Assembly: GCF_040838345.1 (NCBI RefSeq) | Contig: NZ_JBAKFF010000001.1 | Span: 1,550,001 to 1,614,000 of the forward strand | DNA: 64,000 nt | Source: Spiribacter sp. 1M189 | GTDB taxonomy: Bacteria; Pseudomonadota; Gammaproteobacteria; Nitrococcales; Nitrococcaceae | Reading direction: 5' to 3' | In this document: piece by piece, positions 9,326 to 38,031 of the stretch | How the letters are laid out: every line of letters starts with the position of its first letter | Position numbering within the stretch: the first letter of the stretch is position 1 | Program-made: the position numbers and the translations under genes | Notes under the pieces: model-generated | Told to the model about the DNA's origin: nothing | Seen by the model: the letters and a program-made list of their open reading frames with translations, nothing else | Databases searched by the model: none

Positions 9326-9412
9326 GGCGGTACGCAGCGTCATCAGGCGGCGCGGTACTGAGAACCGGGCGCGCACGGCGCGCCACAGACATGCAATACA
9401 GAGGCAGATGCC

Positions 9413-13549: not shown

Positions 13550-15269
13550 GCTGCGCCCTTATCTGAGCATGCTGCGTCCCTACCGCGGCCGTCTCCTCAT
13601 CGGTGCCGCACTCATGCTGGTGACGGCGGCATCCGGGATCGGGCTACTGGCGCTCTCGGGCTGGTTCATTACCGCAACCGCTGTCACCGGTGCACTGCTG
13701 GCCGCCGGCATTGCGGCGCGGCTTGATATCTATGTACCGGGTGGCGGCATCCGCACCTTTGCCGTCACGCGCACCGTCGCCCGCTACTTTGAGCGGGTCT
13801 TCAACCACGATGTGGTGTTGAGGCTGCTGCGCGATCTGCGCGGACAGACCTTCTCGCGCCTGGCAAACCTCTCGCCGAGCGCACTGGGCGCGCTGCGGAG
13901 CGGCGAGCTGCTCAATCGGCTGACCACGGACATCGACCGACTCGACGGGCTTTATCTACGGGGGCTGGCACCGCCTTTGGTCGCCGGCCTCGCGATACTG
14001 ATCACCGGCGCGCTCCTGGCCATCGGCTCGGTCACCGTGGCGTTAACCGCTGGTCTGATTCTGGCGACGGCGGGCGCGCTGATCGGACTTCGTGCCTGGT
14101 CTTTGGGACAGGCACTGACCAGACGCCTGGCGAGCGCCAACGCAAACCTGCGCGCTCAGCTGGTGGACCATCTCCGGGGCCTCACCGAGTTAAAGGCTTT
14201 CGGGAGTGTTGGTTATCACCGCAAACGCGTGGATCGTCTCGATGAAGAGGAACGCGCAGGCGAGAACCGGCTCGCCGCCGAGATCGCCACGGGCGAGGCA
14301 ATCCTTCACGGCACCGTCCAGCTGGTCGTGGTGGGCGTCCTGCTCGCTGCCCTGAGTCTGTTCACAGCCGATCGGATCAGTGGTGCCGTCGCGGTGATGA
14401 TGCCCCTGGCCGTCCTCGCCCTGCTTGAGCCACTGGGCGTACTGCCGGGATCCGGACTGCACCTGGCCCGTGCCCGTGCCTCGGCACAGCGCCTCGACAC
14501 GCGGGAGCTCGACGCAACACCCTCGCGGCATGAGACCCGGGCGGGCGATGGCCATGGCGGTGGCGATCAATCCACTAAGGCAGTTCTGGGACAGGCACGA
14601 TCGGGACAGGCACCGGATATCCGATTCGAGTCGGTCACCCTACGCCGCGGTGCCGGTGCAAAGGTCCTCGATGAGCTGAACCTGGTAGTCGGTGAAGGCG
14701 AGCATGTCGGCGTAATCGGCGCATCAGGCTGCGGAAAATCGAGTCTCGCCAACCTCGTTGCCGGATGGCTCGTGCCGGACAGCGGTCGGGTATCAGCAGG
14801 AGGGGAGCCGGTCGAAAAGCTGGTGCCCGCCAGTCATCTCGCTCGGCTGGGCTACCTTACACAGCACACCGATCTGTTCAGCGGAACAATCGCCGGCAAT
14901 CTGCGGGTCGCCTGCCCGGACGCAAGCGACGCACGTCTATGGTCTCTACTGGAAGCGCTGGCGCTGGACGAATTCGTGGCCGGTTGCCCCAATGGAATAG
15001 ATACCTGGATCGGGGAATCGGGCCTGGAAGTCTCGGGCGGGCAAGCCCGGCGGCTCGCCCTCGGCCGGGTGATGTTGCGAGAGGCGACGATCGTCGTGCT
15101 CGACGAACCCCTCAGCGGGCTGGATGAGGGCACCGCCGCCCACGTGAGTCTTGCCATCAAGCGCTGGCTCGCGGGACGCACGGCCATCGTCCTTGGACAC
15201 GAGCCATCCGCGATTCCATCCGTTGAGCGGGTGTTGCAACTGCGCACGGGTCGTCTGACACCGGTTTGA
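13542..15269 (+). CDS. cydC: thiol-reductant ABC exporter subunit CydC
   Basis: Partner of CydD. The 575-residue protein has a membrane domain (about 1-315), a linker and an ATPase domain with Walker A GASGCGKSS (about 392), signature VSGGQARRLALGR (about 496) and Walker B VVLDEPLSGLD (about 516). The ATG at 13542 overlaps the cydD stop; an ATG 24 bases earlier is possible. The linker is odd: it holds two tandem copies of the dispersed 11-mer (14588-14613), read as GQAR-SGQAP. A third copy (14105) encodes LGQAL in the membrane domain. Confidence 0.92.
   Translation: MNELRPYLSMLRPYRGRLLIGAALMLVTAASGIGLLALSGWFITATAVTGALLAAGIAARLDIYVPGGGIRTFAVTRTVARYFERVFNHDVVLRLLRDLRGQTFSRLANLSPSALGALRSGELLNRLTTDIDRLDGLYLRGLAPPLVAGLAILITGALLAIGSVTVALTAGLILATAGALIGLRAWSLGQALTRRLASANANLRAQLVDHLRGLTELKAFGSVGYHRKRVDRLDEEERAGENRLAAEIATGEAILHGTVQLVVVGVLLAALSLFTADRISGAVAVMMPLAVLALLEPLGVLPGSGLHLARARASAQRLDTRELDATPSRHETRAGDGHGGGDQSTKAVLGQARSGQAPDIRFESVTLRRGAGAKVLDELNLVVGEGEHVGVIGASGCGKSSLANLVAGWLVPDSGRVSAGGEPVEKLVPASHLARLGYLTQHTDLFSGTIAGNLRVACPDASDARLWSLLEALALDEFVAGCPNGIDTWIGESGLEVSGGQARRLALGRVMLREATIVVLDEPLSGLDEGTAAHVSLAIKRWLAGRTAIVLGHEPSAIPSVERVLQLRTGRLTPV
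14105..14115 (+). repeat. dispersed 11-mer GGGACAGGCAC
   Basis: Exact copy inside cydC, sense, read in the GQA frame (SLGQALTRR) within the membrane domain. Confidence 0.8.
14588..14613 (+). repeat. two tandem copies of GGGACAGGCAC
   Basis: Exact copies at 14588-14598 and 14603-14613 are separated by GATC. Both are read in the same frame in the cydC linker between membrane and ATPase domains. It is the only place where two exact copies are nearly adjacent. Confidence 0.9.
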
Positions 15270-17285: not shown

Positions 17286-18884
17286 ATGCTCAATACCACA
17301 ATGGGCACCCGGGGCATGATGACCGCTCCCCATCACATGGCGGCCGAGGCTGGCCGTGATGTGCTCCGCGAGAACGGGACAGCCACTGAAGCGATGGTAG
17401 CGGCAGCAGCGGTCATCGCCGTCGTCTATCCGCATATGAATGCGATTGGCGGCGACGGTTTCTGGCTGATCAGTCGACCCGGGGAGGCGCCGATTGGTGT
17501 TGATGCCTGTGGCCCGGCCGCCCGATTGGCTACCAGAGACTACTACGGCGAGCGCGGTTTGGCGGCCATTCCGACTCGGGGACCACAGGCCGCACTGACG
17601 GTGCCCGGTACGGTGGGAGGTTGGCAGACGGCACTATCGCATGCGACCAACGGCGGAGGCGGAGGCAGACTACCGCTATCCCGACTGCTCGAGCCCGCCG
17701 CAGCACTAGCGCGTGACGGCGTGCCAATCACCGCTGGTCAAGCGCTGGTTACGCGAGAAAAGCTCAACGAGCTCCATGATTTACCAGGGTTCGCGGAAAC
17801 GTTTCTCGATGCCTATGGCCGGCCACTCGAATGCGGAGCACGGCTTCGTCAGCCAGCGCTGGCCGATACGCTCGAGCAACTGAGCCGTGTGGGGCTGGAT
17901 GACTTCTACCGCGGAGATGTTGCCCGCAGCATAGCCGCTGATCTCGACACGCTTGGCAGCCCGCTCCGGCTGGACGACCTCTTGGAGTACAGACCACTTA
18001 CGGTCGAACCACTGAGCCTTCGCGTCGGCAAAGCCCGCCTCTACAACATGCCTCCGCCCACTCAGGGACTCGCCTCGCTGCTGATACTTGGGATTCATCA
18101 AAGAGTGCCTGTCCCAAACATGGGCCCATTTGGACATATCCACGCGCTCGTCGAGTCGACCAAAAAGGCCTTCCAGGTTCGGGACAGGCACGTTGCGGAC
18201 CCACGCTGGATGACCGTAAACCCGCAGGATTTCCTTTGCGGTCAGTGGCTGGAAACAGCTGCCAGTGAGATCGATATGACCCGGGCAGCGCCCTGGCCCT
18301 ACCCAGGAGCTGCCGGCGATACGGTCTGGATGGGCGCCGTCGACTCGCAGGGCCAAGCGGTGAGCTTTATTCAGTCGATCTACTGGGAATACGGAGCGGG
18401 GGTCGTACTACCGGCGACCGGAGTCCTGATGCAGAACCGCGGGATCAGCTTCGGTCTGGATGCACAGAATCTTCAGGCCCTTGAGCCCGGTCGGCGTCCC
18501 TTTCACACCCTAAACCCGGCGATGGCCCGCTTCGATGACGGGCGCGATATGGTTTACGGGACTATGGGCGGTGAGGGACAGCCACAGACACAAGCTGCAA
18601 TCTTCACCCGTTACGCCAATGACATGATGCCTCTTCAAAAAGCGATCAGTGCGCCGCGATGGTTGCTCGGTCGCACCTGGGGAAGTTCGAGTACAAACCT
18701 GAAGCTCGAGTCTCGATTCCCTTCAAGCCTTTCGGAGCAACTCCATGAGGCAGGGCATGCCGTTGAGATGGTTGGGAATTTCGACAGCATGATGGGACAT
18801 GCCGGCGCGATAGTGCGTCATCCCGACGGATTGCTCGAAGGTGCCAGCGACCCGCGTAGTGATGGAGCCGTCGCCGCGAGCTGA
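17286..18884 (+). CDS. gamma-glutamyltransferase family protein
   Basis: This 532-residue Ntn-hydrolase-type protein has GGT landmarks: AIGGDGFWLI (about 54-63), PGTVGGWQTAL, DTVWMGAVDSQGQAVSFIQSI (about 345-365, where Thr of DTV is the likely autoprocessing nucleophile) and MGGEGQPQTQAA. No signal peptide is seen, unlike E. coli GGT, so it may be cytoplasmic and act on another gamma-glutamyl or related amide. Two dispersed 11-mers fall inside it: one antisense (18105, read VPVP) and one sense (18181, read DRH). It starts 5 bases after the hydrolase stop, suggesting one operon. Confidence 0.87.
   Translation: MLNTTMGTRGMMTAPHHMAAEAGRDVLRENGTATEAMVAAAAVIAVVYPHMNAIGGDGFWLISRPGEAPIGVDACGPAARLATRDYYGERGLAAIPTRGPQAALTVPGTVGGWQTALSHATNGGGGGRLPLSRLLEPAAALARDGVPITAGQALVTREKLNELHDLPGFAETFLDAYGRPLECGARLRQPALADTLEQLSRVGLDDFYRGDVARSIAADLDTLGSPLRLDDLLEYRPLTVEPLSLRVGKARLYNMPPPTQGLASLLILGIHQRVPVPNMGPFGHIHALVESTKKAFQVRDRHVADPRWMTVNPQDFLCGQWLETAASEIDMTRAAPWPYPGAAGDTVWMGAVDSQGQAVSFIQSIYWEYGAGVVLPATGVLMQNRGISFGLDAQNLQALEPGRRPFHTLNPAMARFDDGRDMVYGTMGGEGQPQTQAAIFTRYANDMMPLQKAISAPRWLLGRTWGSSSTNLKLESRFPSSLSEQLHEAGHAVEMVGNFDSMMGHAGAIVRHPDGLLEGASDPRSDGAVAAS
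18105..18115 (-). repeat. dispersed 11-mer GGGACAGGCAC
   Basis: Exact copy on the minus strand inside the gamma-glutamyltransferase gene (antisense), encoding VPVP in RVPVPNMGPF. Confidence 0.8.
18181..18191 (+). repeat. dispersed 11-mer GGGACAGGCAC
   Basis: Exact copy, sense, in the gamma-glutamyltransferase gene, encoding DRH in VRDRHVADP. It lies 65 bases after an oppositely oriented copy. Confidence 0.8.
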
Positions 18885-18891
18885 GGCACAA

Positions 18892-19710
18892 TCAACGCTG
18901 GCAACGCGGACAATAGACGGTCGAGCGCTGGGCGAGGCGGATTTCTTTCAAGCGCCGCCCGCAGTAACCGCATGGCTGGCCTCCTCGTCCATAGGCGTGG
19001 AGGGTTTGCTGGAAGTATCCGGGGACACCATCGGCACCGCTGAAATCTCGCAAAGTTGTGCCGCCCGCCTCGATCGCCTCCTCCAGAACTGCACGAATGC
19101 AGCCGACCAGATGGTCATAGCGCTGGCGGGCAATGCGCCCTGCGGGGCGCGTTGGATGGATACCGGAACGATAGAGCGCCTCAGTCGCATAGATATTCCC
19201 GACACCAACTACGACGTGGCTGTCCATTACCAGGTTTTTTACGGCAACACGGCGCCCCGCGGCTATGCGGTGGAGATATTCACCCTTGAATTCGCCACCA
19301 AGCGGTTCCGGGCCAAGCCGGGATAGCAGCGGATGCTGCTCCGGCGGATCTTCGGTGATATGGAGACTCCCAAAGCGGCGCGGATCGTTAAAGCGGAGTA
19401 GCTCGCCACTGTCGAGCTCGAAGTCGACATGGTCATGGGACTTTAGTGCCTGTCCCGGTCTGACCACACGCATATGTCCGGACATGCCCAGATGCATGAG
19501 GATCGTGGTACCTGCTTCGAGCCGAAACAACAGATACTTACCCCGCCGATCGAGGGAGTGGATGCGGGCACCGGCGACGCGAGGGGGGTCAGTCACCGGG
19601 ACATGCCAACGCAGCCTGGGTTCTCGCACCCTCAAGCACAGTAATCGATGGCCCACGCAATGGGGTTCCAGGCCCCGGCGCGTCGTCTCTACCTCTGGCA
19701 ACTCGGGCAT
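18892..19710 (-). CDS. mutM: formamidopyrimidine-DNA glycosylase
   Basis: MutM/Fpg removes oxidised purines such as 8-oxoguanine and nicks the site by beta/delta elimination. The 272-residue protein has the obligatory N-terminus PELPEVE (catalytic Pro and Glu after Met removal), a conserved Lys in RRGKYLLF (about 58), DPRRFG, NIYATEALY and a C-terminal zinc finger CGYC...CPRC. A copy of the dispersed 11-mer (19446) encodes PGQAL just before the conserved HDHVD. Compared with the E. coli protein as I remember it, this causes no length change. Confidence 0.96.
   Translation of the reverse strand: MPELPEVETTRRGLEPHCVGHRLLCLRVREPRLRWHVPVTDPPRVAGARIHSLDRRGKYLLFRLEAGTTILMHLGMSGHMRVVRPGQALKSHDHVDFELDSGELLRFNDPRRFGSLHITEDPPEQHPLLSRLGPEPLGGEFKGEYLHRIAAGRRVAVKNLVMDSHVVVGVGNIYATEALYRSGIHPTRPAGRIARQRYDHLVGCIRAVLEEAIEAGGTTLRDFSGADGVPGYFQQTLHAYGRGGQPCGYCGRRLKEIRLAQRSTVYCPRCQR
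19446..19456 (-). repeat. dispersed 11-mer GGGACAGGCAC
   Basis: Exact copy, sense to mutM, encoding GQA in RPGQALKSHD. Confidence 0.8.
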
Positions 19711-20361: not shown

Positions 20362-21321
20362 ATGGAGTTCCAGGACTACTACAAGACGCTCGGCGTAAAC
20401 CGCGAGGCGTCCAAAGACGAGATCAAAAAGGCGTATCGTCGCCTTGCGCGCAAATATCATCCGGACGTGAGCCAGGAGCCAGACGCCGAGACAAAGTTCA
20501 AGCAGGTCGCCGAAGCTTATGAGGTCCTCAAGGACCCGGATAAGCGCAAGATGTATGACGAGCTCGGTGAGAACTGGCAATCGGGCCAGGACTTCCGGCC
20601 ACCGCCGGGTTGGGAACAACAGACCGGCACACGCGGTGGTGCAAGCTACAGCGCCGGCTTTGGTGATTTCAGCGACTTCTTCGAGAACCTGTTTGGCGGA
20701 GGCCTGGGAGGCGGGTTCGGCTCAAGTGGTTTTGGAAAAGGCCCTGACGGGGACAGGCACACAGCCGGTCATGCAAGGGATTTCCGCGCTCCGGATACCA
20801 CTGCGAAGCTGCAGATCGACCTTGAAGACGCTTATGCCGGCGCCACCAAGTCGGTGGATATCAGTGCTGGCGGAGAGTCTCCCAAGCGCCTTCGCGTGAA
20901 GATCCCCGAGGGCGTCACGAACGGACAACAGATTCGACTCAAGGGTCAGGGTACGCGCTCACCCATGAGTAGCGAGCCGGGTGACCTCCTCCTTGAGATT
21001 CATATCCGCCCCCATGACCGCTTCCATCTTCGCGGCAAGGATATCCACGTCGATGTGCCGGTTGCGCCGTGGGAGGCCGCGCTGGGAGGAACGATCCCGG
21101 CCCCAACGCTGGGCGGGACGGTCGAGCTTAAAATCCCGCGAGGCAGCCAGACTGGCACACGGCTGCGCTTGAAAGGACGGGGGCTTCCCGGTCGAAACAG
21201 AGGAAATCAATATGTTTCTCTGAAGATCGTCAACCCGCCGCTCGACAGCCAGCAGTCGGAAGACTTCTTCAAGTCGATGGCAGAGGCCTTTGACTTCGAT
21301 CCACGTGCTTCGACGAGCTGA
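20362..21321 (+). CDS. cbpA: curved-DNA-binding DnaJ-family co-chaperone
   Basis: The 319-residue protein has an N-terminal J domain (residues 1-70, HPD at 33-35), a Gly/Phe-rich linker ([17 protein letters not shown]) and a DnaJ C-terminal substrate domain without the DnaJ zinc centre. This is the layout of CbpA, which partners DnaK and binds curved DNA. The linker contains one copy of the dispersed 11-mer (20750, read GDRH). The last 53 bases overlap the convergent RAYT transposase gene. No cbpM follows. Confidence 0.88.
20750..20760 (+). repeat. dispersed 11-mer GGGACAGGCAC
   Basis: Exact copy, sense, in the flexible Gly-rich linker of cbpA, read as DRH in PDGDRHTAG. Confidence 0.85.
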
Positions 21322-22330
21322 AACGAAGGCGTTCGCCGGCGCATCTGAAAAGCGCGGCGGCAAGCCGACGACCCCTAAAGTAGTGGCGGCCGAGAGAGAC
21401 CGCCCATGATCGTAGACTATCGGGGTCACCCAGTACGGCCAGGCCATGCCCTCCGCCAGCGGCGACGAAATCTCCGAACATCTCAGAGCTAAGCCCCAAT
21501 CGGCTCAGAACCGGCGGGATACCATCCGGCATCGCTGCGCCTTTGCCGGCGGCGACGGCCCGAGCGCTCCAATCGATGAGCTCGAGGTATTCGAGCAAGG
21601 TCAATGGAGGCGATGCTCCAGGGCCGTCGCTCTCTTCCGCTCCACCTGCGGGGAGCGCCATTAATTTGGGGCCTGTTCCAGGAAACGGTCGACCGGCCGC
21701 ATGGGCAAATCGCTGGGCTACAGAGGCGTACTCCGCATCTTCAGGACGTTCGACGATGCCGGCTCTTAGAGGGTTCAGATCCACGTAGGTCATGGCAGTC
21801 ATCAAAGCCCCTTCGTCCAGCAACGCCTGACAGCGGTAGCGGCCCTGCCAGAAATGGCCATTCACCTCGTCCTCCCGGTTCGCCCGACGGGCGATCGGTT
21901 CGTTGATACAGCGCATAAACCAGGAGAGGCTCATGAGACGGGAACGGTACATCGCCACGACGAGCGACATCGACGGATGCGACGCCATCCGATGGCCGGA
22001 CTGCACAACCTCATGCATCCAAGCCGGCCCTTTGAAAAGCATGAGCCAGCGCCTCAAGACTTCATGCGGCGTCCACGATCTCGCGGTCTGTTCATCGATC
22101 CGTACGACCAAGTGATAGTGATTGGACATCACAGCATAGGCACAGACGTCGACGGCAAAGATCTGAACGAGTCGTTCTAACCTCTGACATATCCACCGAC
22201 GCCTATGCGAGTAATCCTTGCCCGTCAGCGGATCATGGCCACATAAAAACTCGCGTCTTACGCATCGCGATACGAGGTGATAGTAAGGCGTTGCCTTGAG
22301 CGAGATCTGATTGCGACGAGGTTGCCCCAT
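21269..22330 (-). CDS. REP-associated tyrosine transposase (RAYT, Y1_Tnp family)
   Basis: This 353-residue protein has the IS200-type HUH nuclease core found in RAYTs. Features are [18 protein letters not shown] at the start, the HUH motif NHYHLVV (His71/His73), [13 protein letters not shown] and the catalytic-Tyr segment [11 protein letters not shown] (Tyr182). A long C-terminal extension follows. RAYTs usually mobilise short REP palindromes rather than themselves. I start at the ATG at 22330, where family proteins begin ([10 protein letters not shown]); longer in-frame starts reach 22402. The last 17 residues are encoded opposite the end of cbpA, so the original 3' end may be altered. The frame is otherwise intact, so it may be active. 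A REP-like palindrome lies just upstream. Confidence 0.85.
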
Positions 22331-22390
22331 CCCTGGATAACCTTCTGACTTCAGTCCAAACAGTGGAAACAATTTCGGCATTGATGTGAC

Positions 22391-22443
22391 AGCCGCCGGC
22401 ATCCCGGCGTGGCATCCATTCCTTTACCGGCTTGCCGGCGGCT
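22391..22443. repeat. REP-like inverted repeat beside the RAYT gene
   Basis: Perfect 11-bp arms AGCCGCCGGCA (22391-22401) and TGCCGGCGGCT (22433-22443) flank a 31-base loop that contains further CCGG-rich palindromic bits. It is 60 bases from the transposase start, where RAYTs typically have REP elements. Confidence 0.6.
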
Positions 22444-22814
22444 GGCCACAAGCTTAGTCTCGGAAAAGTGCTCCCGGATTTCCAGTATCCACGGGCCGTA
22501 ACCGATGGGCGGTAGGCGTCTCAGGACGAACGGCTGCTCAACAGGGGGTTCTGCTGGCTCGACTACCCCATTGACTCGATTTGAATATCGGGCCGATCAC
22601 AAGCCAAACGGGACCCGTCGGGCGAAAGAGGCGACCAGCCGCCAGCCCAAGCGATTTTTCAGCGTCCCTGCTGCCGTATCCGACGGGCCAGCGACTGGTC
22701 TGGGACAAAGTATCTACAACCGTGGCGACGAAAACTATCCCCCATATGTGGGGTATGGATGATGCTTGTCGCTCTGCGGCAAACGCCTTAACCTCTCATC
22801 TCGGGCGAGATTAA

Positions 22815-22825
22815 GGGACAGGCAC
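22815..22825 (+). repeat. dispersed 11-mer GGGACAGGCAC
   Basis: Exact copy in the RAYT-pcm spacer, 88 bases before the pcm start. Confidence 0.85.
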
Positions 22826-22913: not shown

Positions 22914-23576
22914 ATGACTGACGTGAATCTGGCTGATGCAAGGGAAAACATGATCGAGCAGCAGTTGAGGACCTGGGAGGTCTTGAACGGCCGCGTCCTC
23001 GATGCACTGGAGAAGCTGCCACGGGAAGCCTTCACGCCGCCCCAGTACGCCAACCTTGCGTACGCAGACATGCAGGTTCCGCTGGGGCATGGGGAGGTAA
23101 TGCTCGAACCGAAGGTTGAGGGTCGGCTACTGCAAGCGCTGGACCCACAGCCCAACGAGCGTGTCCTCGAGGTCGGCACCGGCTCTGGCTATCTCACGTG
23201 TTGCCTTGCCCGCCTCGCATCCCACGTCACGAGTGTCGACATCTACCCCGACTTCACAGCGCGTGCCGAGGATTCCATTCGCCATGCGGGGGTACGGAAC
23301 ATCCGTTTGGAAGTGGGCGATGCAGCGCTGGGCTGGGATGATGGTCGACGCTATGACGTCATCGCCGTTACCGGCTCTCTGCCCCAGCTGCACCAGGGGT
23401 TCCATCGCAGCCTAGCCGAAGGCGGGCGACTGTTCCTCATTCTGGGACAGCCACCGATCATGGAGGCGGTTCTCATCACTCGAGTTGGCGAGGATCAGTG
23501 GTCGAGCGAGAGCCTGTTCGACACCACCGCGCCACCACTTTTAGGCTCGCCGGTCACTCGGGAATTCTCTCTCTAA
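22914..23576 (+). CDS. pcm: protein-L-isoaspartate O-methyltransferase
   Basis: Pcm methylates isoaspartyl residues in damaged proteins using S-adenosylmethionine. The 220-residue product has MIEQQLRTWEV, the SAM-binding motif VLEVGTGSGYLT (about 85-96) and the late GQPPIMEAVLITR. The active-site region, usually P-X-T/S, appears as YADMQVPLGHGEVML, so it belongs to the shorter PIMT-like branch found beside tolC, and activity on isoaspartate is not certain. The start at 22914 follows an AGCGGA site. The gene order pcm-rhodanese-tolC recurs in related bacteria. Confidence 0.82.
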   Translation: MTDVNLADARENMIEQQLRTWEVLNGRVLDALEKLPREAFTPPQYANLAYADMQVPLGHGEVMLEPKVEGRLLQALDPQPNERVLEVGTGSGYLTCCLARLASHVTSVDIYPDFTARAEDSIRHAGVRNIRLEVGDAALGWDDGRRYDVIAVTGSLPQLHQGFHRSLAEGGRLFLILGQPPIMEAVLITRVGEDQWSSESLFDTTAPPLLGSPVTREFSL

Positions 23577-23600: not shown

Positions 23601-23924
23601 ATGCAGAGCTTGACGCCACGGGAACTCCATCAAAAGATCAGATCGGGACAGGCACAAATCACAGTCCTCGATGTAAGGGAGCCATGGGAGACTCGAATTG
23701 CTCGGCTCGAAGGGTGCGTCTTTGCGCCCTTGAGCACCTTTGGCACCGAGATCGTTGATGATCTGCCCGACGACAGAGATGTCGTTGTCCTCTGTCATCA
23801 TGGCGTTCGAAGTGCCATGGTGACCCAATGGCTTGAACAAAATGGCCGGGAACGGGTCTTTAATCTCAGTGGCGGGATCGATGAATGGTCCCGCACCATC
23901 GACCCGAGCCTGCCCAGGTACTGA
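23601..23924 (+). CDS. single-domain rhodanese (GlpE-like) sulfurtransferase
   Basis: This 107-residue cytoplasmic protein has the rhodanese core: VLDVREPWE (about 22-30), the active loop LCHHGVRSA (Cys near 65) and NLSGGIDEWS. It probably transfers sulfane sulfur from thiosulfate or a persulfide to an acceptor thiol. It lies between pcm and the tolC-like gene with short gaps, in an apparent operon. An exact copy of the dispersed 11-mer (23645) encodes SGQAQ just before the first core strand. Confidence 0.88.
   Translation: MQSLTPRELHQKIRSGQAQITVLDVREPWETRIARLEGCVFAPLSTFGTEIVDDLPDDRDVVVLCHHGVRSAMVTQWLEQNGRERVFNLSGGIDEWSRTIDPSLPRY
23645..23655 (+). repeat. dispersed 11-mer GGGACAGGCAC
   Basis: Exact copy, sense, in the rhodanese gene, preceded by GATC and read as GQA in IRSGQAQITV. 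Confidence 0.85.
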
Positions 23925-25283: not shown

Positions 25284-26560
25284 GACTTAACCTGATCGAC
25301 AAAAAGTGTCCGATGCAGCGCACTTAGCGTACGCTCCGTCGCGCCCCTGTGCTCCTCAACAAGCCGTCTCGCGTTATCTCCCACCTCCGCCAGATAGTGC
25401 CTGTCCCCGAATAACGAAGTCAGTGAGTCTGCCAGCTCGGCCGCGCTATGAACCCGGATGCGGCCACCCCGATCTCCCAGCAGGCTATCGATCTGACGGA
25501 AATTGGTGACATTCGGCCCCATTAGAATCGCTTTGGCCAAGGACGCTGGCTCCAGGGGATTATGGCCACCGACCGGTGTAAGCGTACCCCCCACAAACGC
25601 GATGTCGGCGGCGGAGAGAAACCGGATCATCTCCCCGTATGTGTCTCCCAGCACGACGCTTGTTTCGGGGGCTATCGGTTCATTCTCGTACAACCCCGAA
25701 GCCATCAGAACATGCCTGTCCCAAACCGAGTCAGGCCAGGTGAACTGCTCAGGGTGTCTCGGCACCGCAATGAGGAGCGCATTCGTGTAACGCGCACGAA
25801 GCAACTCATGCGCCTCTTTCACGATCGGCGCCTCGGCCTGCCTGAGGCTCACCGCCACCCATACAGGACGATCGAGACCTATCTGCGAGCGCAAGAGGCG
25901 GCCCAGCTGGATCTGCTGATCATTGACCGATTGATCGAACTTGAGGTTGCCCGTGACTTCAATCCGCCGATCCGGGACACCCATCTTGCGGTACCGCTCC
26001 GCGTCGGCTTCGGTTTGTGCGCTGACGCAGACAACGCCCGCCAGGCACTGCTTCATCAAGCGGCCAAATCGGGCATAACGCCGGAAACTCGCCTCACTCA
26101 GACGAGCGTTGACGAGGGCGACGGGGATGCTTCTCCTTTCCAGCGCCACCAGCCGATTGGGCCATAGCTCCAGCTCGACGAACAAAGCGGCGGACGGCCG
26201 GAGCTTGTCGAGAAAACGCTCAACGGCATCTGGGACATCCACTGGAGGGAATCTCACCACGATCCCGGCGCCATAACGGCCCTCCGCGGTCTGACGGCCG
26301 GTTGGGGTGTTCGTGGTAATAAAAAGCGCACGGCCCTCCTCAAGCAGACGATCGATGAGGGGCTGGGCAGCGCGGACCTCGCCCACCGATGCGGCATGAA
26401 TCCAGAGGGACCCTGAGGCGACCGCATGATAATCGCCTCGGCCCCACCGCTCGTTGATACCAAGTCGGTAGGCTGGATCTTTCCGACCCAGCCTCCGGAG
26501 GTAGGCATGTGCAAGCGGCCGCAAAAGCCGAGACAGGACCCGGTAGAAAGTGACCGTCAT
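25280..26560 (-). CDS. waaA: 3-deoxy-D-manno-octulosonic acid (Kdo) transferase
   Basis: WaaA adds Kdo from CMP-Kdo to the lipid A precursor at the inner membrane. The 426-residue protein has the amino-proximal RWGRGDY and LWIHAASVGEV (the catalytic Glu follows SVG), FVELELWPN, and the C-terminal FVGGTLTPVGGHNPLEPA that binds the nucleotide. Two copies of the dispersed word lie inside it: 25397 (exact, read GDRHY near the end) and 25712 (one mismatch, read WDRHV). It overlaps the downstream tolC end by 4 bases and the upstream GT9 stop by 4, so waaA and the GT9 are co-transcribed. Confidence 0.94.
   Translation of the reverse strand: MTVTFYRVLSRLLRPLAHAYLRRLGRKDPAYRLGINERWGRGDYHAVASGSLWIHAASVGEVRAAQPLIDRLLEEGRALFITTNTPTGRQTAEGRYGAGIVVRFPPVDVPDAVERFLDKLRPSAALFVELELWPNRLVALERRSIPVALVNARLSEASFRRYARFGRLMKQCLAGVVCVSAQTEADAERYRKMGVPDRRIEVTGNLKFDQSVNDQQIQLGRLLRSQIGLDRPVWVAVSLRQAEAPIVKEAHELLRARYTNALLIAVPRHPEQFTWPDSVWDRHVLMASGLYENEPIAPETSVVLGDTYGEMIRFLSAADIAFVGGTLTPVGGHNPLEPASLAKAILMGPNVTNFRQIDSLLGDRGGRIRVHSAAELADSLTSLFGDRHYLAEVGDNARRLVEEHRGATERTLSALHRTLFVDQVKS
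25397..25407 (-). repeat. dispersed 11-mer GGGACAGGCAC
   Basis: Exact copy, sense to waaA, read as DRH in LFGDRHYLAEVG. Confidence 0.8.
25712..25722 (-). repeat. 11-mer variant GGGACAGGCAT
   Basis: One mismatch at the last base, sense to waaA, read as DRH in SVWDRHVLMASG. Confidence 0.65.
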
Positions 26561-27708
26561 ACGGCCAGCCGTTCCTTGGTCGGCGTCGACATCAATTCAT
26601 CGAGCTTCGCGATCACCGCCGCTGGCTTGATCAGCTCCATGGCACGAGGATCTCTGACCCGTTTTCCCCAGCGAATATCGCCCACCGCTCGGCCCAGTGA
26701 CTCCCGAACCGCCTGCGGATAGGCATTAACGACCCACCGCATGCCGAGCACGGGCCCCGTCCGCTCCGGATTGGAGGTCGCATAAAGGCCAATCGGCGGA
26801 GCGCCCGCAGCAACCGCCATGTGCAACGGGCCGGAATCCGGTGCGAGCACCACAGATGCCCGCTGCATCAGGGCAAATAATGTCTTGAGATCCGTGCGTC
26901 CAATGAGGTTCAGGATCGGGACAGGCACTTTCCGACCCGATGGATTATTCAGCGCAGCGAGTATCCGCTCTCCGTAGTCCCGCTCGACCTGGCTTCTGCC
27001 ACCGGTCAGGACGATTCGCAGTCCATGTACCGATGCCGCGTAGCTGGCAACCTCCGCGTAGTACTCAGGCGCCCAGTTCCTGAAGTTACGGAACCGATCG
27101 CTGCTGCATGGGCTGATCAACAGGATTTTACGAGCCGCAGTCTTATCACCATCGGTACCGGACGTTTCCCCACCAAACCGCGCCAGCAGATCCTCCGATC
27201 GCTCTCTCGCACTGTTGGGAACGGGGATGTCCCAGCGCAAGTGACGCTCCTGAACACCGAGCGCCTCGCAGAACCCGAAAAAACCGTCGATGACGTGTCC
27301 GGGCGGAACATTCGGGATGCGTTCATTAATGAAAACGCTATGCCCATCTCTAGACCGGGACCTGTCGAATCCGATACGTACTGGTGCCTTAACCGCACGT
27401 GACGCCAGCCCCGCACGAAGGGCAACCTGCATGAGCAACAGAACGTCGAACGCCCGACCGGAGAGCTTGCGGCGGAGAGTGCCTGTCCCGGTTTTCTTGT
27501 CGTGAGTGATAATCTCTACACCATCAAGGTCACCGAGCAGGCCGGCTTCCGTCTGGCCCATGATCCAAGTAAGCCTGGTCTCTGGCAGATGCTCCTGAAG
27601 AGTCCGAACGATGGGAACCATGTTGCAGCAATCACCTATCGCCGAGAGACGGAACAGGCACAGTCGACGCGGAGCATTGGCGCTCACGGGTAATTGCTGA
27701 TGGTGCAT
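26557..27708 (-). CDS. glycosyltransferase family 9 (heptosyltransferase-like)
   Basis: This GT9 protein has the fold of ADP-heptose:LPS heptosyltransferases. The N-terminal LFRLSAIGD carries the catalytic-Asp region, then LLLMQVALRAGL, and the C-terminal VLAPDSGPLHMAVAAGAPPIGLYA binds the sugar nucleotide. It may be WaaC-like or another core heptosyltransferase. The start is uncertain: the ATG at 27708 overlaps the divergent kdkA ATG by 9 bases, and a GTG at 27687 would avoid this. Two exact dispersed words lie inside: 26918 (antisense, VPVP) and 27479 (sense, GTGT). Confidence 0.85.
   Translation of the reverse strand: MHHQQLPVSANAPRRLCLFRLSAIGDCCNMVPIVRTLQEHLPETRLTWIMGQTEAGLLGDLDGVEIITHDKKTGTGTLRRKLSGRAFDVLLLMQVALRAGLASRAVKAPVRIGFDRSRSRDGHSVFINERIPNVPPGHVIDGFFGFCEALGVQERHLRWDIPVPNSARERSEDLLARFGGETSGTDGDKTAARKILLISPCSSDRFRNFRNWAPEYYAEVASYAASVHGLRIVLTGGRSQVERDYGERILAALNNPSGRKVPVPILNLIGRTDLKTLFALMQRASVVLAPDSGPLHMAVAAGAPPIGLYATSNPERTGPVLGMRWVVNAYPQAVRESLGRAVGDIRWGKRVRDPRAMELIKPAAVIAKLDELMSTPTKERLAV
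26918..26928 (+). repeat. dispersed 11-mer GGGACAGGCAC
   Basis: Exact copy, preceded by GATC, antisense to the GT9 gene, which reads it as VPVP in RKVPVPILNLIG. Confidence 0.85.
27479..27489 (-). repeat. dispersed 11-mer GGGACAGGCAC
   Basis: Exact copy, sense to the GT9 gene, read as GTGT in KKTGTGTLRRK. Confidence 0.85.
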
Positions 27709-28437
27709 TTGGATGTCCGCGCTCAAGGTGCGACTTACTTTATCAGCCCGCCGATCACCTCGTCGCACGAGGTGTCTTCCAAACTTTTTAACCCGCAATG
27801 GCTTGAAGCGCAGGCGCTGATCGAAGGGACGGCGCAAGGCCGTGCGGCCGCCTGGTTCATCCGTTTAAAAGACGAACAACTGGTGCTTCGTCATTATCGC
27901 CGCGGCGGCCTGCCAGCCCGGTTCAGCAACGATCGATTCCTCTGGATCGGGCTGAGAAGGAGTCGTCCATGGCGAGAACTATCCGTCCTTTCGCGACTGC
28001 ACGCCCTCGGCCTTCCGGTGCCTGTCCCAATCGCTGGCCGTGTCCAGAAGAAAACAGTCAGCTATACCGCGGACATCATTACTCGGCGGATCCCGGGGGC
28101 TCGATCGCTGGCAGATTTCATGCTCGCAAGTTATTTCGGGGACACCCACGATCAGAACGCTCGCGATGACATCTGGCGTGAAACCGGGCGGGTGATACGA
28201 GCGTTCCACGCAATCGGCGCCCACCATGCGGACCTGAATGTCCGCAATATCCTTATCGACGAGCAACGCAAAGTCTGGTTGATTGACTGGGATCGCGGTA
28301 GATTGAACGCGGGCGCCGCGATTCAGAGCCGAAGCATGGCACGACTTCGCCGATCCCTGTCCCGGGAGGCGGAGCTGGAGAGCATCGCCCGGCAGGGCTG
28401 GCCCCTGTTAATGAGCGCCTATTCGCGGGGTCCCTGA
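27700..28437 (+). CDS. kdkA: 3-deoxy-D-manno-octulosonic acid (Kdo) kinase
   Basis: KdkA phosphorylates Kdo of the inner core on the cytoplasmic face. The roughly 245-residue protein has a small kinase-like fold: LVLRHYRRGGL (ATP-binding Lys/Arg strand), GLPVPVPIAGRV hinge region, then FHAIGAHHADLNVRNILID and VWLIDWDRGRL, matching the catalytic HxDLNxxN and DWD metal-binding loops. Its last 19 bases overlap the convergent hldE. One exact dispersed word (28018) encodes VPVP in the hinge, where this residue pattern is common in the family. Confidence 0.9.
   Translation: MVHLDVRAQGATYFISPPITSSHEVSSKLFNPQWLEAQALIEGTAQGRAAAWFIRLKDEQLVLRHYRRGGLPARFSNDRFLWIGLRRSRPWRELSVLSRLHALGLPVPVPIAGRVQKKTVSYTADIITRRIPGARSLADFMLASYFGDTHDQNARDDIWRETGRVIRAFHAIGAHHADLNVRNILIDEQRKVWLIDWDRGRLNAGAAIQSRSMARLRRSLSREAELESIARQGWPLLMSAYSRGP
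28018..28028 (-). repeat. dispersed 11-mer GGGACAGGCAC
   Basis: Exact copy on the minus strand, antisense to kdkA, which reads it as VPVP in GLPVPVPIAG. Confidence 0.75.
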
Positions 28438-29858
28438 ATCCGATCGATGATCGCGCTGGTCGACTCACCTTCGACGAAATCAAGGACGCGCACTTCTCCG
28501 CCGGCCGCGGTCACTGCGTCGTATCCGGCGATCTGCTCTGGCGAATAGTCGCCGCCCTTGACCAGCACATCCGGCAGAACTTCACCGATCAGCGCCGCCG
28601 GCGTATCTTCGGAAAACGAAATGACCCAATCGACGGCGTTCAAAGCCGCTAGCACCGACATCCGCTGGGCGAGCGGCATGACCGGGCGTCCCTCGCCCTT
28701 GAGCCTCTGCACCGACTCATCATCATTGACTGCCACCACCAGACGATCGCCAAGCCGTCGTGCCTGCTCCAGATAATGCACATGGCCCGCATGGAGCAGA
28801 TCGAAGCAGCCGTTGGTCATCACGACCTTCTCTCCCCGCTTGCGTAGTGGTGCCAAGATAGCCTGGAGGGTCTTGGAATCGAGCACTTCGCGGTTGCCAT
28901 GCATTACGCCCGCCGCCGCCTCCAATTCCGGGACAGCCACCGAGGCGGTGCCGACTTTTGCCACCACGAGGGAGGCCGCAAGATTCGCGAGCGAGGTGGC
29001 GTGCCGAAAATCCGCCCCGGCCGCGAGCGCAGCAGCGAGAAGTGCGATCACCGTATCTCCCGCACCCGTGACGTCAAAAACCTCGCGCGCATGCGCCGGC
29101 AGATGAAATGGGGGCTGATCACGATACAGCAGACTCATGCCCTCCTCGCCACGGGTGATGAGCATCCCGGCCAGCGATAGCTGCTCGATCACTTGGCCAG
29201 CCAGCTGCTCCAGCTGATGGCCGTCCCAATCGCCATTGCCATGCTGCGCCTGGTATTGCTGGAACTCGGTGAGATTGGGCGTCAGCAGCGTGGCTCCTGC
29301 ATAGCGATCCCACTCCGTTCCCTTGGGGTCTACCAGGACTGGGACACCCACTCTCCGTGCGTCTTGGATAAGACCCTCAACCCCGCATAACGTCCCCTTG
29401 GCGTAGTCCGAGACCACCACCACATCGGCCTCGCGCAGGGCCTCGGCAAACCGGTCGGCAAGGCCGGCCGTCTCGGAAGGAGTGAACGGCCGCTCGAAAT
29501 CGAGCCTCATCAGCTGCTGGCGCTGACTGATGACGCGAAGCTTGCAGATCGTCGGGTGAGTATCAACTCGCTGGAGTAGCGGTTGCACCCCAGCCGCGCG
29601 CAGCCGTGACTCAAGCAGCCGACCATGATCATCGTCTCCTATCAGCCCGATGATCCTGACCTGCGCCCCGAGGGTACCGAGATTCATCGCGACGTTAGCC
29701 GCGCCCCCGGGACGCAGATCCTCCTCGTCAACGCGCAGTACTGGGACCGGTGCCTCAGGGGATATACGCCCGGTTGGCCCGTGCCAGTAGCGATCAAGCA
29801 TGACATCACCGACCACGAGCACTCGGGCGGCACCAAAATCCGGAACTTCAAGCTGCAT
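28419..29858 (-). CDS. hldE: bifunctional heptose 7-phosphate kinase / heptose 1-phosphate adenylyltransferase
   Basis: HldE makes ADP-D-glycero-manno-heptose from the 7-phosphate in two of the three activation steps. The 479-residue protein has a ribokinase-like domain (about 1-320: GDVMLDRYWHG, PGGAANVAMNL, DVTGAGDTV) and a C-terminal nucleotidyltransferase domain (about 345-479: MTNGCFDLLHAGHVHYLE, with the HxGH motif). Both domains look complete. The 3' end overlaps kdkA; lpxL is divergent. With hldD at 40.3 kb the heptose pathway needs only gmhA and gmhB elsewhere. Confidence 0.96.
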   Translation of the reverse strand: MQLEVPDFGAARVLVVGDVMLDRYWHGPTGRISPEAPVPVLRVDEEDLRPGGAANVAMNLGTLGAQVRIIGLIGDDDHGRLLESRLRAAGVQPLLQRVDTHPTICKLRVISQRQQLMRLDFERPFTPSETAGLADRFAEALREADVVVVSDYAKGTLCGVEGLIQDARRVGVPVLVDPKGTEWDRYAGATLLTPNLTEFQQYQAQHGNGDWDGHQLEQLAGQVIEQLSLAGMLITRGEEGMSLLYRDQPPFHLPAHAREVFDVTGAGDTVIALLAAALAAGADFRHATSLANLAASLVVAKVGTASVAVPELEAAAGVMHGNREVLDSKTLQAILAPLRKRGEKVVMTNGCFDLLHAGHVHYLEQARRLGDRLVVAVNDDESVQRLKGEGRPVMPLAQRMSVLAALNAVDWVISFSEDTPAALIGEVLPDVLVKGGDYSPEQIAGYDAVTAAGGEVRVLDFVEGESTSAIIDRIQGPRE

Positions 29859-29948: not shown

Positions 29949-30917
29949 TTGGCTAACGTGTCCGATCCGACAACTCGTCCCTCGTATCACCCGCACAACG
30001 CTGGCCAATGGCTAATGCTGGGGCTGCTATGGCTGATTGGCAGGCTTCCCCCCAAAGCGGCTTTTGGCATCGGTGAGTGGGCAGGTTTGCTTCTACGCCT
30101 GTCCAGACGACGTCGCCAGATCGCGCTGAGGAACCTCGAGCTTTGCTTCCCGGAGTTGGGACAGGCACAACGTGAGCATCTAGTCCGCGAAAATCTGTGC
30201 TACATGGGTAGGGCCATCGCGGAGACGGCGCTTGCCTGGTTTGGTGGAAAGCGCGTCGACGAGATCCCCTGCCAGGTTCGGGGGATCCATCACCTGCATG
30301 CCGCACAGTCAGACGGTAGCCCCGTTATTCTCCTGTCGGGACATTTCCTGTGCGTCGAGCTGGCCGCAAGGCTCATCGGACCACAGCTCAATATGGCTGT
30401 GATCTACAAGCCGTTGCGTAAAAAGCCACTGATGGACCGAGCAATGCTTCGCAGCCGATCCAGGACCCTGGCCGGCGCGATACCGCGGAATGATCTGCGA
30501 GGCATCATCCGGACCCTCAAGAACCGAACGCCAGTCTGGTACGCGGGTGATCAGGATTACGGCGTAAAAAACAGCGTTTTCGTCCCTTTCATGGGTGTCC
30601 CTGCCGCCACGATCACAGGACTGACGCGTCTAAGTAAGCTCGGAAAAGCACGGGTGGTACCGCTTTTCTTCAACGTCAACGCCACCGGTAATGGATACGA
30701 AGTAACACTCGGTAAAGCGCTGGAGGGTTTCCCAACCGGCTCCGATGTCCTTGATGCGCAATGGATGAACGCGGTGCTAGAGCGCGGCATTCGTGCACAT
30801 CCGGAGCAATACCTGTGGGTCCATCGCCGGTTCAAGCATCCGCCCCCGGGTGAGCGGCCCGCTTATCGCAACTCACTGCAAAAATCCTACAACCGGGTCG
30901 CGGGTGCTCCATGGTGA
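29949..30917 (+). CDS. LPS lipid A acyltransferase, LpxL/HtrB family
   Basis: This 322-residue protein carries the LpxL-type core: RRQIALRNLELCFPEL, the catalytic HX4E motif in SGHFLCVELAARL, YAGDQDYGVKNSVFVPFMG and YLWVHRRFKHPP. It probably transfers a secondary acyl chain to Kdo2-lipid IVA. The start is a TTG at 29949 after GAGAG; a GTG at 29958 is an alternative. The end overlaps waaF by 7 bases. A second family member lies at 41.3 kb, so the two may add different acyl chains. The dispersed word at 30158 encodes GQA in FPELGQAQREHL. Confidence 0.88.
   Translation: MANVSDPTTRPSYHPHNAGQWLMLGLLWLIGRLPPKAAFGIGEWAGLLLRLSRRRRQIALRNLELCFPELGQAQREHLVRENLCYMGRAIAETALAWFGGKRVDEIPCQVRGIHHLHAAQSDGSPVILLSGHFLCVELAARLIGPQLNMAVIYKPLRKKPLMDRAMLRSRSRTLAGAIPRNDLRGIIRTLKNRTPVWYAGDQDYGVKNSVFVPFMGVPAATITGLTRLSKLGKARVVPLFFNVNATGNGYEVTLGKALEGFPTGSDVLDAQWMNAVLERGIRAHPEQYLWVHRRFKHPPPGERPAYRNSLQKSYNRVAGAPW
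30158..30168 (+). repeat. dispersed 11-mer GGGACAGGCAC
   Basis: Exact copy, sense, in the first lpxL-type gene, read as GQA in ELGQAQRE. Confidence 0.8.
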
Positions 30918-32026
30918 GCGCAGTGACCGACTCAAGCGATGCGAATGCAATCCTGATCGTCGGGCCTGGCTGGGTGGGTGATATGGTCATGGCGCAGAGT
31001 CTATGCAAAGCGCTCAAGCAAGCGGCGCCGACTCGCCCGATCGATATGATCACTCCACCTTGGGGACAGGCACTGGTCGAACGCATGCCGGAAATCCGAC
31101 ACGCGATCCCGCTGGATGTTGCGCACGGGGAACTCGGATTGGGCAGACGCTGGAAACTGGGACAGGCACTGCGCGACCGGAATTATGCCCAGGCGTTCGT
31201 TCTCCCGCGCTCGGCAAAAGCAGCCTTGGTGCCATGGGTCGCGGGCGTCCCGCGCAGAACGGGATACCTCGGCGAGTATCGCTACGGCCTGCTGAACGAT
31301 ATCCGCCCGCTCAACCGGGAAATGCATTACCGCACGGTCGATCGTTTTGTGGCGCTGGCTGATCCGCCGGGACGCGGAGACGACCGTGAGCGATCAGGGA
31401 CAGGCACAAACCCATCCAGCATCCCGCAACCCGCTCTCACGAGCTCGACCGCTCAAATAAATTCGGCAATACAAGAGCTTGGCCTATCAGGCGCTTGGAA
31501 TTCAGCAGGCGCGCGATTCGGGACAGGCACTATCCTCACCCTCTGCCCAGGGGCTGAGTACGGGCCAGCGAAGCGCTGGCCGGTTGAGCATTTCGCGAGC
31601 CTTGCGAAGACATATATCGAAATGGGCTGGTCGGTGTGGATGTTGGGATCCAGCAAAGACACGCGGATCACCCGGGAAATTTCGGGACAGGCACTCGGTG
31701 TCGTGGATCTTGCAGGTCGCACGACGCTGAGTCAGGCCATCGATTTGCTCGCCGCCAGCACAGTGGTCGTGACCAACGACTCGGGGCTGATGCACATAGC
31801 AGCCGCGACGTCGACACCACTCGTCGCACTATACGGCTCGTCGGATCCTCAATATACTCCGCCACTTAGCGATAATGCGCAGATTATTTACAGGGACCTC
31901 GACTGCAGCCCCTGCTTTCAGCGTGAGTGCCCGCTGGGGCATCTCAACTGTCTCCGCGGCATCAACTCGCAGAGCGTGGCTGATGCAATCGATCGAGCTT
32001 TATCAGCGGACGCCGACAGCCGCTAA
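30911..32026 (+). CDS. waaF: LPS heptosyltransferase II
   Basis: WaaF adds the second heptose to the inner core from ADP-heptose. The 371-residue GT9 protein begins AILIVGPGWVGDMVMAQSL and carries VLPRSAKAALVPWVAGVPRRTG, CPGAEYGPAKRWP and VVTNDSGLMHIAAATSTPLVALYG, all characteristic. It contains five exact copies of the dispersed 11-mer, all sense (31063, 31159, 31397, 31520, 31684), read GQA three times and GTGT twice. Two GTGT copies border a Ser/Ala-rich stretch (about residues 158-206) that aligns poorly with E. coli WaaF as remembered. The active-site motifs are intact. Confidence 0.94.
   Translation: MVSAVTDSSDANAILIVGPGWVGDMVMAQSLCKALKQAAPTRPIDMITPPWGQALVERMPEIRHAIPLDVAHGELGLGRRWKLGQALRDRNYAQAFVLPRSAKAALVPWVAGVPRRTGYLGEYRYGLLNDIRPLNREMHYRTVDRFVALADPPGRGDDRERSGTGTNPSSIPQPALTSSTAQINSAIQELGLSGAWNSAGARFGTGTILTLCPGAEYGPAKRWPVEHFASLAKTYIEMGWSVWMLGSSKDTRITREISGQALGVVDLAGRTTLSQAIDLLAASTVVVTNDSGLMHIAAATSTPLVALYGSSDPQYTPPLSDNAQIIYRDLDCSPCFQRECPLGHLNCLRGINSQSVADAIDRALSADADSR
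31063..31073 (+). repeat. dispersed 11-mer GGGACAGGCAC (waaF copy 1)
   Basis: Exact, sense, read as GQA in PPWGQALVERMPE. Confidence 0.85.
31159..31169 (+). repeat. dispersed 11-mer GGGACAGGCAC (waaF copy 2)
   Basis: Exact, sense, read as GQA in WKLGQALRDRN. Confidence 0.85.
31397..31407 (+). repeat. dispersed 11-mer GGGACAGGCAC (waaF copy 3)
   Basis: Exact, sense, read as GTGT in RERSGTGTNPSS, within a low-complexity loop. Confidence 0.9.
31520..31530 (+). repeat. dispersed 11-mer GGGACAGGCAC (waaF copy 4)
   Basis: Exact, sense, read as GTGT in ARFGTGTILTLCPG, immediately before a core strand. Confidence 0.9.
31684..31694 (+). repeat. dispersed 11-mer GGGACAGGCAC (waaF copy 5)
   Basis: Exact, sense, read as GQA in REISGQALGVVDLAG. 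Confidence 0.85.
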
Positions 32027-32041
32027 TCGAGATTCTGAGCT

Positions 32042-33010: not shown

Positions 33011-33011
33011 G

Positions 33012-33881: not shown

Positions 33882-33895
33882 TTCGGGACAGCCAC
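33850..33895 (+). repeat. two GGGACAGCCAC copies flanking the GT2/GT4 gene junction
   Basis: Copies at 33850-33860 and 33885-33895, 35 bases apart, surround the overlapping ATGA stop/start at 33878-33881. Each is preceded by (A/T)TC and read as RDSH in the GT2 tail and the GT4 N-terminus. Confidence 0.8.
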
Positions 33896-36862: not shown

Positions 36863-36886
36863 CCGCTATGTCTATCTGCGGCCGAG

Positions 36887-38023: not shown

Positions 38024-38031
38024 GAAATCGC

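Follow-up and report, generated by a model that had tools for sequence, protein, structure and literature searches.

The 64,000-nucleotide (nt) stretch of Spiribacter sp. 1M189 analyzed here (the window; positions 1,550,001 to 1,614,000 of contig NZ_JBAKFF010000001.1) carries a gene for a repetitive extragenic palindrome (REP)-associated tyrosine transposase (RAYT), which lies within a cluster of copies of an 11-mer, GGGACAGGCAC. RAYTs are widespread domesticated transposases of unsettled role. The host bacterium is probably salt-loving, and in its genome (G000; 1.95 Mb, 3 contigs) a search with the RAYT matched only the RAYT itself. The open reading frame (ORF) extends on the minus strand to 22402, giving 377 amino acids (aa) from the first ATG (21269-22402). 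Relatives share a start at residue 25 of this longer frame (MGQPRR...), which places the gene at 21269-22330, minus strand, with a product of 353 aa. A sequence-only reading of this DNA had described a 353-residue protein with intact HUH and catalytic tyrosine motifs, and both the conserved start and our alignments agree with that description.

The HUH (NHYH) and tyrosine (YVDLNP) motifs are intact in the window RAYT, and the corresponding residues are intact in all 12 RAYTs of the genus. An alignment of 13 sequences showed H71 and Y182 to be invariant and H73 to be present in 12, the exception being G014, a genome outside the genus; all three residues were invariant in a wider alignment of 41 sequences. 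The aligned G014 copy has lost the second histidine, and the G014 locus lacks enrichment of the motif described below. The RAYT scored 25.4 bits against Pfam Y1_Tnp (cut-off 23), placing it in the Y1/HUH superfamily (IS200/IS605-TnpAREP), and 46.6 bits against NCBIfam NF047646 (REP-associated tyrosine transposase), below the curated cut-off of 80. An AlphaFold model was obtained with a predicted local distance difference test (pLDDT) score of 84.8 and a predicted template modeling (pTM) score of 0.86, and the closest structure was E. coli TnpAREP, 4er8 (Z 12.1, root mean square deviation 2.9, 158 aligned). Foldseek alone gave no match to the model at E ≤ 0.001, the best being 4er8 at 3.6 × 10−3. 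By length and motifs the protein fits TnpAY1 subclass 2.3, an assignment made by comparison with Table 1 of PMC6006769. In that paper, subclass 2.3 is characterized by about 325 aa, NHYH, YVDLNP, a long C-terminal tail and no REP-like elements; the window gene is like it in length, in both motifs, in its long C-terminal tail and in having no flanking REP-like structures.

About 60 bp upstream of the likely RAYT start is a hairpin (22390-22444, minus strand) with arms of 18 nt each, 22390-22407 and 22427-22444, that are 89% complementary. The stem and its ARGAANGGAYGCC loop are kept in 7/7 loci at the chromosomal place of the window, where 94.2% of cells are paired and 5 pairs are changed on both sides, values reached by 1 and 20 of 500 shuffles, respectively. 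At the other chromosomal place occupied by RAYTs, no recognizable counterpart was found within 170 nt upstream of the gene. The sequence-only reading had reported a REP-like palindrome at the start of the gene and had pointed out that its sequence differs from the 11-mer. The palindrome is real and contains no 11-mer, and the genome search suggested for it returned a single copy and no dispersed family, ruling out a REP family. We conclude that the upstream hairpin is a conserved, single-copy element separate from the 11-mer cluster; it may have a regulatory or enzyme-binding role.

The window contains the 11-mer GGGACAGGCAC 23 times, on the plus strand in 17 cases and on the minus strand in 6, and the whole genome contains it 25 times, compared with 1 copy of a reversed-pattern control. 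Of these 25, 23 lie inside C1:1556845-1595459, 39 kb around the RAYT, confirming the earlier claim that an 11-mer block surrounds the gene. A variant, GGGACAGCCAC, has 7 of its 8 genome copies there as well, each of them on the plus strand. The field around the window RAYT consists of about 30 sites of the form GGGACAG[G/C]CAC, which is not palindromic. To the left of the gene, GGGACAGGCAC sites occupy 14105-14115, 14588-14598 (missing in G010 through an indel), 14603-14613, 18181-18191 (RDRH in frame) and 20750-20760 on the plus strand and 18105-18115 and 19446-19456 on the minus strand, with variant sites at 17376-17386 and 18575-18585. The site at 20750-20760 is within the gene adjoining the RAYT, which we take to be of DnaJ type. 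To the right, plus-strand sites are found at 22815-22825 (between the RAYT and the next gene), 23645-23655, 26918-26928 (antisense, encoding VPVP), 30158-30168, 31063-31073 (encoding GQAL), 31159-31169, 31397-31407 (encoding GTGT), 31520-31530, 31684-31694, 33026-33036 and, towards the field edge, 37978-37988; minus-strand sites are at 25397-25407, 27479-27489 and 28018-28028, and the variant is at 23444-23454, 28930-28940, 33053-33063, 33850-33860 and 33885-33895. The two sites nearest to the RAYT, at 20750 and 22815, are both plus. In total, 26/35 G000 sites were within conserved ORFs (a looser ORF set took in 29/30), and the in-frame readings of the 11-mer were GQAL, GTGT, RDRH, VPVP or CLSL. 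Beside the right edge of the field, window positions 32000-40000 have a GC content of about 0.55-0.59, compared with 0.59-0.66 elsewhere in the window.

Two copies stand apart. One is an outlying minus-strand GGGACAGGCAC at 45449-45459. The other, at 6845-6855 on the plus strand, is part of a hairpin at 6843-6869 and is 7 kb from the next copy. The sequence-only reading took this copy to be half of a hairpin, as a REP would be; the hairpin exists, and its REP sense was not upheld, this copy being an outlier in a terminator-like structure. In the nearest species the orthologue has the stem without the 11-mer, and for this reason we read 6843-6869 as a common terminator-type hairpin with a resemblance to the motif, probably lying outside the field.

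Comparison across the genus covered 14 genomes including that of the window, 11 of which have the RAYT, at 12 loci in total (G011 has two, G011a and G011b). The general form of the motif is TWNN-RGACANNCAC. Its core class, RGACANNCA, was enriched at 12/12 of these loci (−log10 p 14.6-79.7), and the leading enriched k-mers there were the motif itself. The RAYTs sit at two chromosomal places, each held by one clade. The first is separated from dnaA by about 132-167 kb (G000, G001, G002, G012 and G011a) and the second, on the opposite side, by about 22-23 kb (G005, G006 and G011b); G010, G013, G003 and G004 were assigned to a place by gene order. A RAYT tree grouped the sequences by chromosomal place with support of 95/94 and 98/97. 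Among ORFs of at least 80 aa, the RAYT is the only orthologue-grade gene common to both places (39-46% identity), the other one or two cross-place matches per comparison being of paralogue type (26-33% identity). The motif is likewise local in G005, G006 and G011: 26/27 copies of GGACAGACAC in G005 lie in 35 kb, 31/45 copies in G006 in 46 kb (reversed-pattern control 8) and 69/94 copies of RGACACCCAC in G011 in 60 kb (reversed-pattern control 13). The fields are mostly within about 15 kb of the RAYT, with some of the stretches bounded by the DNA fetched. The second field of G011 (G011:C12:259376-319758) ends abruptly at 319.8 kb after a dense stretch, and RGACACCCAC is absent from the remaining 65 kb of the contig.

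In seven RAYT-free stretches, six of them counterparts of the RAYT places and one beside the origin, −log10 p for RGACANNCA was 0 to 1.6. G007 retains both neighbors of the RAYT, 1.3 kb apart, and has no RAYT match between them or elsewhere in its genome; of five dialect 9-mers counted in 53.8 kb of its DNA, four were absent and the fifth (GGACAGCCA) occurred twice. G009 was left out of this comparison because its neighbor gene was not found. In 16 relatives outside the genus we counted 0-3 copies of the 11-mer, mostly at or below the reversed control. Co-occurrence of the enzyme with the 11-mer across genomes was a check that the sequence-only reading had put forward; the motif class is found at every RAYT locus of the genus, and the field is absent from the RAYT-free stretches.

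The spelling of the site changes with the RAYT. GGGACAGGCAC is the leading dialect in G000, G010, G001, G012, G002 and G013 and TGGACAGGCAC in G003 and G004, AGGACAGGCA is the main dialect of G011a, and the fields of G006, G011b and G005 are led by TGGACACCCA, AGACACCCAC and GGACAGACAC, respectively. Within G011, which has two RAYTs and two fields, GGACAGGCA is found 54 times in the first field and 8 times in the second, and AGACACCCA 5 and 69 times. At the second chromosomal place, we counted how often homologous positions carried each genome's own dialect, relative to control windows. This was so from G006 to G003 at 10/35 positions (controls 2/929), from G005 to G003 at 11/22 (2/577), from G003 to G005 at 11/33 (3/895), from G006 to G011b at 10/48 (2/1256) and from G006 to G005 at 5/42 (1/1112); weaker pairs were G011b to G005 (1/60), G011b to G003 (2/36) and G005 to G011b (1/26). 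One field, L049-L050 (G004:C8), holds three dialects, with 88 RGACANNCA in 31 kb and one RAYT. The dialects of G004 are mixed (G.GG 30, A.CC 17, G.CC 15), perhaps because the specificity of the enzyme is in transition or because a second RAYT once present has been lost.

To look beyond the genus, we scanned with the RAYT alignment and obtained at least 578 loci, of which the best 80 were kept. We tested the 71 loci of at least 8 kb, without L080 and L090; several came from one genome or lay at a contig end. RGACANNCA was enriched in 26, 15 and 6 of the 71 at p of 10−2, 10−3 and 10−4, and three scrambled controls were enriched in 2, 1 and 0 loci at 10−2 and in none at the stricter values. Of 13 enriched loci that were inspected, 11 are compact in that at least 60% of the copies have a neighboring copy no more than 120 bp away, as against 10-65% in loci of the genus. 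In four of the 13, every copy on either side of the RAYT is directed inward (L093, 5+|4−; L099, 4+|4−; L158, 6+|2−; L083, 4+|1−), and in the remaining nine the orientation is mixed or one-sided. Taken together, the loci outside the genus connect the motif class with the enzyme on grounds that do not depend on the genus.

These results bear on the possibility that another protein reads the motif and that the RAYT is a passenger that happens to lie in the field. This is hard to reconcile with the RAYT being the sole orthologue-grade gene shared by the two places, with the joint absence of RAYT and field in G007, with the two dialects of the two RAYTs in G011 and with the enrichment at 26/71 loci of other genera compared with 0-2 for the scrambled controls, and we consider it improbable.

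The top repeats in L097, L106, L116, L123, L108 and L082 are tandem or regularly spaced (L112 is also compact) and were not counted as fields. In L158 (Aeromonas rivipollensis), a row of truncated 5′ RAYT copies, separated by the motif GGGACACCCACC, immediately precedes the RAYT (9330-9940), as though partial copies of the gene had been deposited repeatedly. In L092, a metagenome-assembled genome of Oceanospirillales, the repeat around the RAYT (9837-11379) is GAGCACGGAC, inward on both sides, and may be an end motif of quite another kind within this enzyme family.

Within the genus, the sites are constrained as DNA. Over nine loci, 296/400 sites fall in non-overlapping conserved ORFs (coverage 0.60-0.97) and do so in several frames. 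Counted over alignable sites, with 2 to 6 sites per pair unaligned, exact conservation was 15/21 for G000/G010 (12% of nearby windows), 22/28 for G001/G012 (3.8%), 23/27 for G002/G013 (3.7%), 23/24 for G001/G002 (8.9%), 25/28 for G001/G013 (1.9%), 14/20 for G000/G001 (2.4%), 10/17 for G000/G002 (1.9%) and 14/20 for G000/G013 (1.0%). None was conserved at RAYT-free counterparts (0/7, 0/6, 0/9 and 0/10; a further 17 to 22 sites per comparison could not be aligned). Across 191 aligned site-pairs, drawn from nine overlapping species pairs, identity was 0.91-0.98 in each of the 11 motif columns and fell to 0.55-0.77 in all columns on either side (−30 to +39). The sites shun the most conserved genes and are located in fast-evolving ones. 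An RNA-level element, that is, a messenger RNA signal in transcripts of the field genes, would fit the sense majority seen in 9/9 loci (21:5, 20:3, 21:6 and 34:8 at one place; 26:18, 16:8, 37:24, 17:12 and 11:9 at the other). At the second place, however, the bias is slight, 93/296 sites are antisense and the field depends on the RAYT, leaving this explanation with next to no probability.

How the sites arose was examined by comparing 272 of them with RAYT-free counterparts. There were 102 unaligned and 170 aligned sites, the latter comprising 111 without gaps, 58 with a partial gap and 1 with the whole motif missing. Because just one of the 170 lacks the whole motif in the counterpart, few sites, if any, resemble inserted units. 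Sites gained or lost between G000 and G010 differ mostly by 1-3 bases, and the unconserved sites between G000 and G001, G002 or G013 are indels or have at least 3 differences. The REP interpretation in the sequence-only reading, in which the RAYT would insert REP elements carrying the 11-mer, draws on the family being the RAYT family, on the pairing of motif and RAYT and on gaps being somewhat commoner at sites than nearby, and that last observation means that some sites may have come with indels. It did not survive the comparison: the motif is non-palindromic, confined to one region, mostly in coding sequence and conserved base by base, the hairpin is single-copy, the unit is cleanly missing at 1/170 aligned sites, and the G000/G010 changes are mostly of 1-3 bases. 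The alignments rule out that the 11-mers usually arose by insertion of REPs, though indels at some sites remain, and we hold dispersal of the REP type to be very improbable.

The RAYT genes themselves are free of sites although the RAYT evolves fast, with 0 in 12 genes compared with 14.7 expected from local density; one site in G013 falls in an N-terminal ORF extension, outside the conserved RAYT gene. That the enzyme recognizes the 11-mer had been offered in the sequence-only reading as conjecture. Comparison now supports it well, in that the field follows the RAYT to two places, shifts dialect with it and is missing without it, and the RAYT is very probably the reader of the motif. Sequence comparison bears out the pairing, the locality, the change of dialect, the DNA-level constraint, the near-absence of unit insertions and the exclusion from the RAYT gene; we infer that the RAYT itself binds the site, acts mainly in cis, and nicks and passes on strands. 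In the mechanism we propose, the enzyme would be made beside its own gene and act mainly in cis, binding the site probably as a single strand during replication or recombination. The conserved HUH/tyrosine chemistry would then nick at the site and hand the strand on, and repair or transfer would favor the copy with an intact site, such that each site would maintain itself only within reach of the gene. Self-maintenance of this kind has been proposed for DNA uptake sequences. If the RAYT gene contained a site, the gene would be split in a transferred segment, which we propose as the reason that it contains none.

Taken as a whole, an enzyme that reads a site of about 11 nt, with the field as its cognate array and self-maintenance through nicking and transfer in cis, is the best explanation and the one we lean towards. 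If the RAYT is the reader, self-maintenance by nicking and transfer has, on its own, somewhat less than an even chance. More tentatively still, we suggest a general arrangement in which a cis-acting HUH enzyme may sustain, within about 15-40 kb of itself, an array of recognition sites that perpetuates itself, is embedded in several frames of unrelated protein genes, changes its spelling in concert as the specificity of the enzyme drifts and is excluded from the enzyme's own gene.

The main alternative is that the field forms a binding domain near the origin that benefits the host, in which the domesticated RAYT would be a site-specific binder, the array would organize, segregate or silence an origin-proximal stretch, and host selection would keep the sites. 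Both places are origin-proximal where this could be measured, per-site conservation between closer species is very strong, and the genes are long resident with each place held by one clade. Alone, however, such a domain leaves unexplained the centering of the field on the gene, the site-free RAYT gene, the intact catalytic residues and the inward layout in some other genera, and we regard it as rather unlikely, if the most serious of the alternatives.

Several observations weigh against self-maintenance in cis by a RAYT that reads the motif. Action in cis is argued solely from the shape of the field, and the fields of G005, G006, G011a and G011b extend to 40 kb. Outside the genus, 45/71 loci lack motif enrichment at p 0.01, and of four RAYT loci in relatives from outside it, two were weakly enriched (G018a and G025, −log10 p 2.8 and 2.2) and two not enriched (G018b and G014, 0.7 and 0.3). 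Over the nine loci, 203 sites are sense and 93 antisense, and in the RAYT-free comparisons gaps occur at 54/153 aligned sites compared with about 22% of nearby windows. Conservation is poor across deeper splits (G000 to G011a 1/15, G001 to G011a 3/19, G003 to G004 4/12). The exclusion count for the RAYT gene uses related, non-independent sequences, and one other gene is nearly site-free (1 site in 7 species). The sites nearest to the RAYT are co-oriented in 8/12 loci of the genus, inward in 2 and outward in 2, and therefore are not simple element ends. Finally, G008 (74% complete, about 240 contigs) has no RAYT match yet carries field-like sites: two small contigs with homology to the G011a flank hold four and five copies of GGACAGGCA, respectively. 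The DNA absent from this assembly may contain a RAYT. The sequence-only reading had named two findings that would overturn the pairing. A motif-rich genome without a RAYT was not established, the incomplete G008 coming nearest; as for a RAYT paired consistently with an unrelated REP, the leading k-mers were the motif and the one hairpin checked was unique, in the course of work that included no dedicated REP scan.

The system can be set beside others described in the literature. Subclass 2.3 was published with no associated DNA element (PMC6006769), whereas here we propose one, a field in Spiribacter and inward ends in some other genera. As in REPtrons, which combine a RAYT (TnpAREP) with REPs in, for example, E. 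coli (PMC8266576), an HUH/Y1 enzyme is matched to, and co-evolves with, a short sequence specific to it, each enzyme in a genome forming one such pair. In contrast to those, the window motif has no palindrome or GTAG foot and is local, mostly intragenic and little given to unit insertion; palindromic REPs dispersed between genes were not seen, no dedicated scan for REPs having been made. The terminal inverted repeat (TIR) motif of TIRtrons or TIRYTs, GGGGWSAS, resembles GGGGACAG, and inward copies flank the RAYT in L093, L099, L158 and L083, much as in those systems (PMC3733652). The window gene is not flanked by inverted repeats: unlike the TIRtron ends (PMC3733652), its nearest sites are co-oriented and dozens more are spread through neighboring genes. 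The TIRYTs described belong to subclasses 2.1, 2.2 and 2.5, not 2.3 (PMC6006769). DNA uptake sequences are likewise short, high-copy motifs with dialects conserved within species, but they number thousands of copies per genome (PMC3630211), whereas here about 20-70 copies lie within tens of kb around one gene, 23/25 of them within 39 kb in G000, and the proposed reader is an HUH enzyme and not an uptake receptor. ComEC and DprA domains were found in 5/5 genomes tested; because E. coli matches too, their presence is not evidence of competence. The 11-mer, being non-palindromic, also differs from the palindromic, origin-near sites of a ParB/parS-type centromere, a comparison made on the sites, with ParB not searched for.

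A literature search on the exact letters of GGGACAGGCAC and GTGCCTGTCCC returned nothing recognizably relevant among the matches listed. The kind of enzyme is known already, as is the pairing of such enzymes with short cognate sequences in REPtrons and TIRtrons. New, as far as the literature searched extends (most subscription journals and preprints lie outside it), is a local, mostly intragenic, per-site conserved and dialect-switching field, of which we found no description. If the proposed arrangement is true, it would amount to a drive that is local and bound to its haplotype, or to a local transfer signal, in contrast to repeat systems dispersed over a genome. The recurrence of the field around this gene in related species, several with a spelling of their own, points to a role of the enzyme family beyond those known. 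Comparison yields a proposed DNA partner for subclass 2.3, and dialects such as GGGACAGGCAC, TGGACACCCAC and GGACAGACAC provide a built-in test of specificity, in which the preferred site of each enzyme is predicted. The field also displays a DNA-level constraint that overrides protein-coding sequence around one gene, and cis action, site maintenance and the co-evolution of nuclease and site become directly testable in a halophile.

Two further ideas about the locus were considered and rejected. Faster protein divergence near the RAYT, as from a mutator, was dismissed on finding that the same genes diverge equally in RAYT-free pairs, with near/far medians of 68.8/74.3 for G006vac/G005vac (RAYT-free) compared with 67.1/73.6 for G000/G001. 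A replication terminus at the locus, hinted at by local GC skew, is ruled out by dnaA, which is about 150 kb away. In a separate observation, a GTTCCACGTGG-type palindrome, which resembles a parS site, is present in 4 copies near dnaA in L033 (G006:C1:1-20000).

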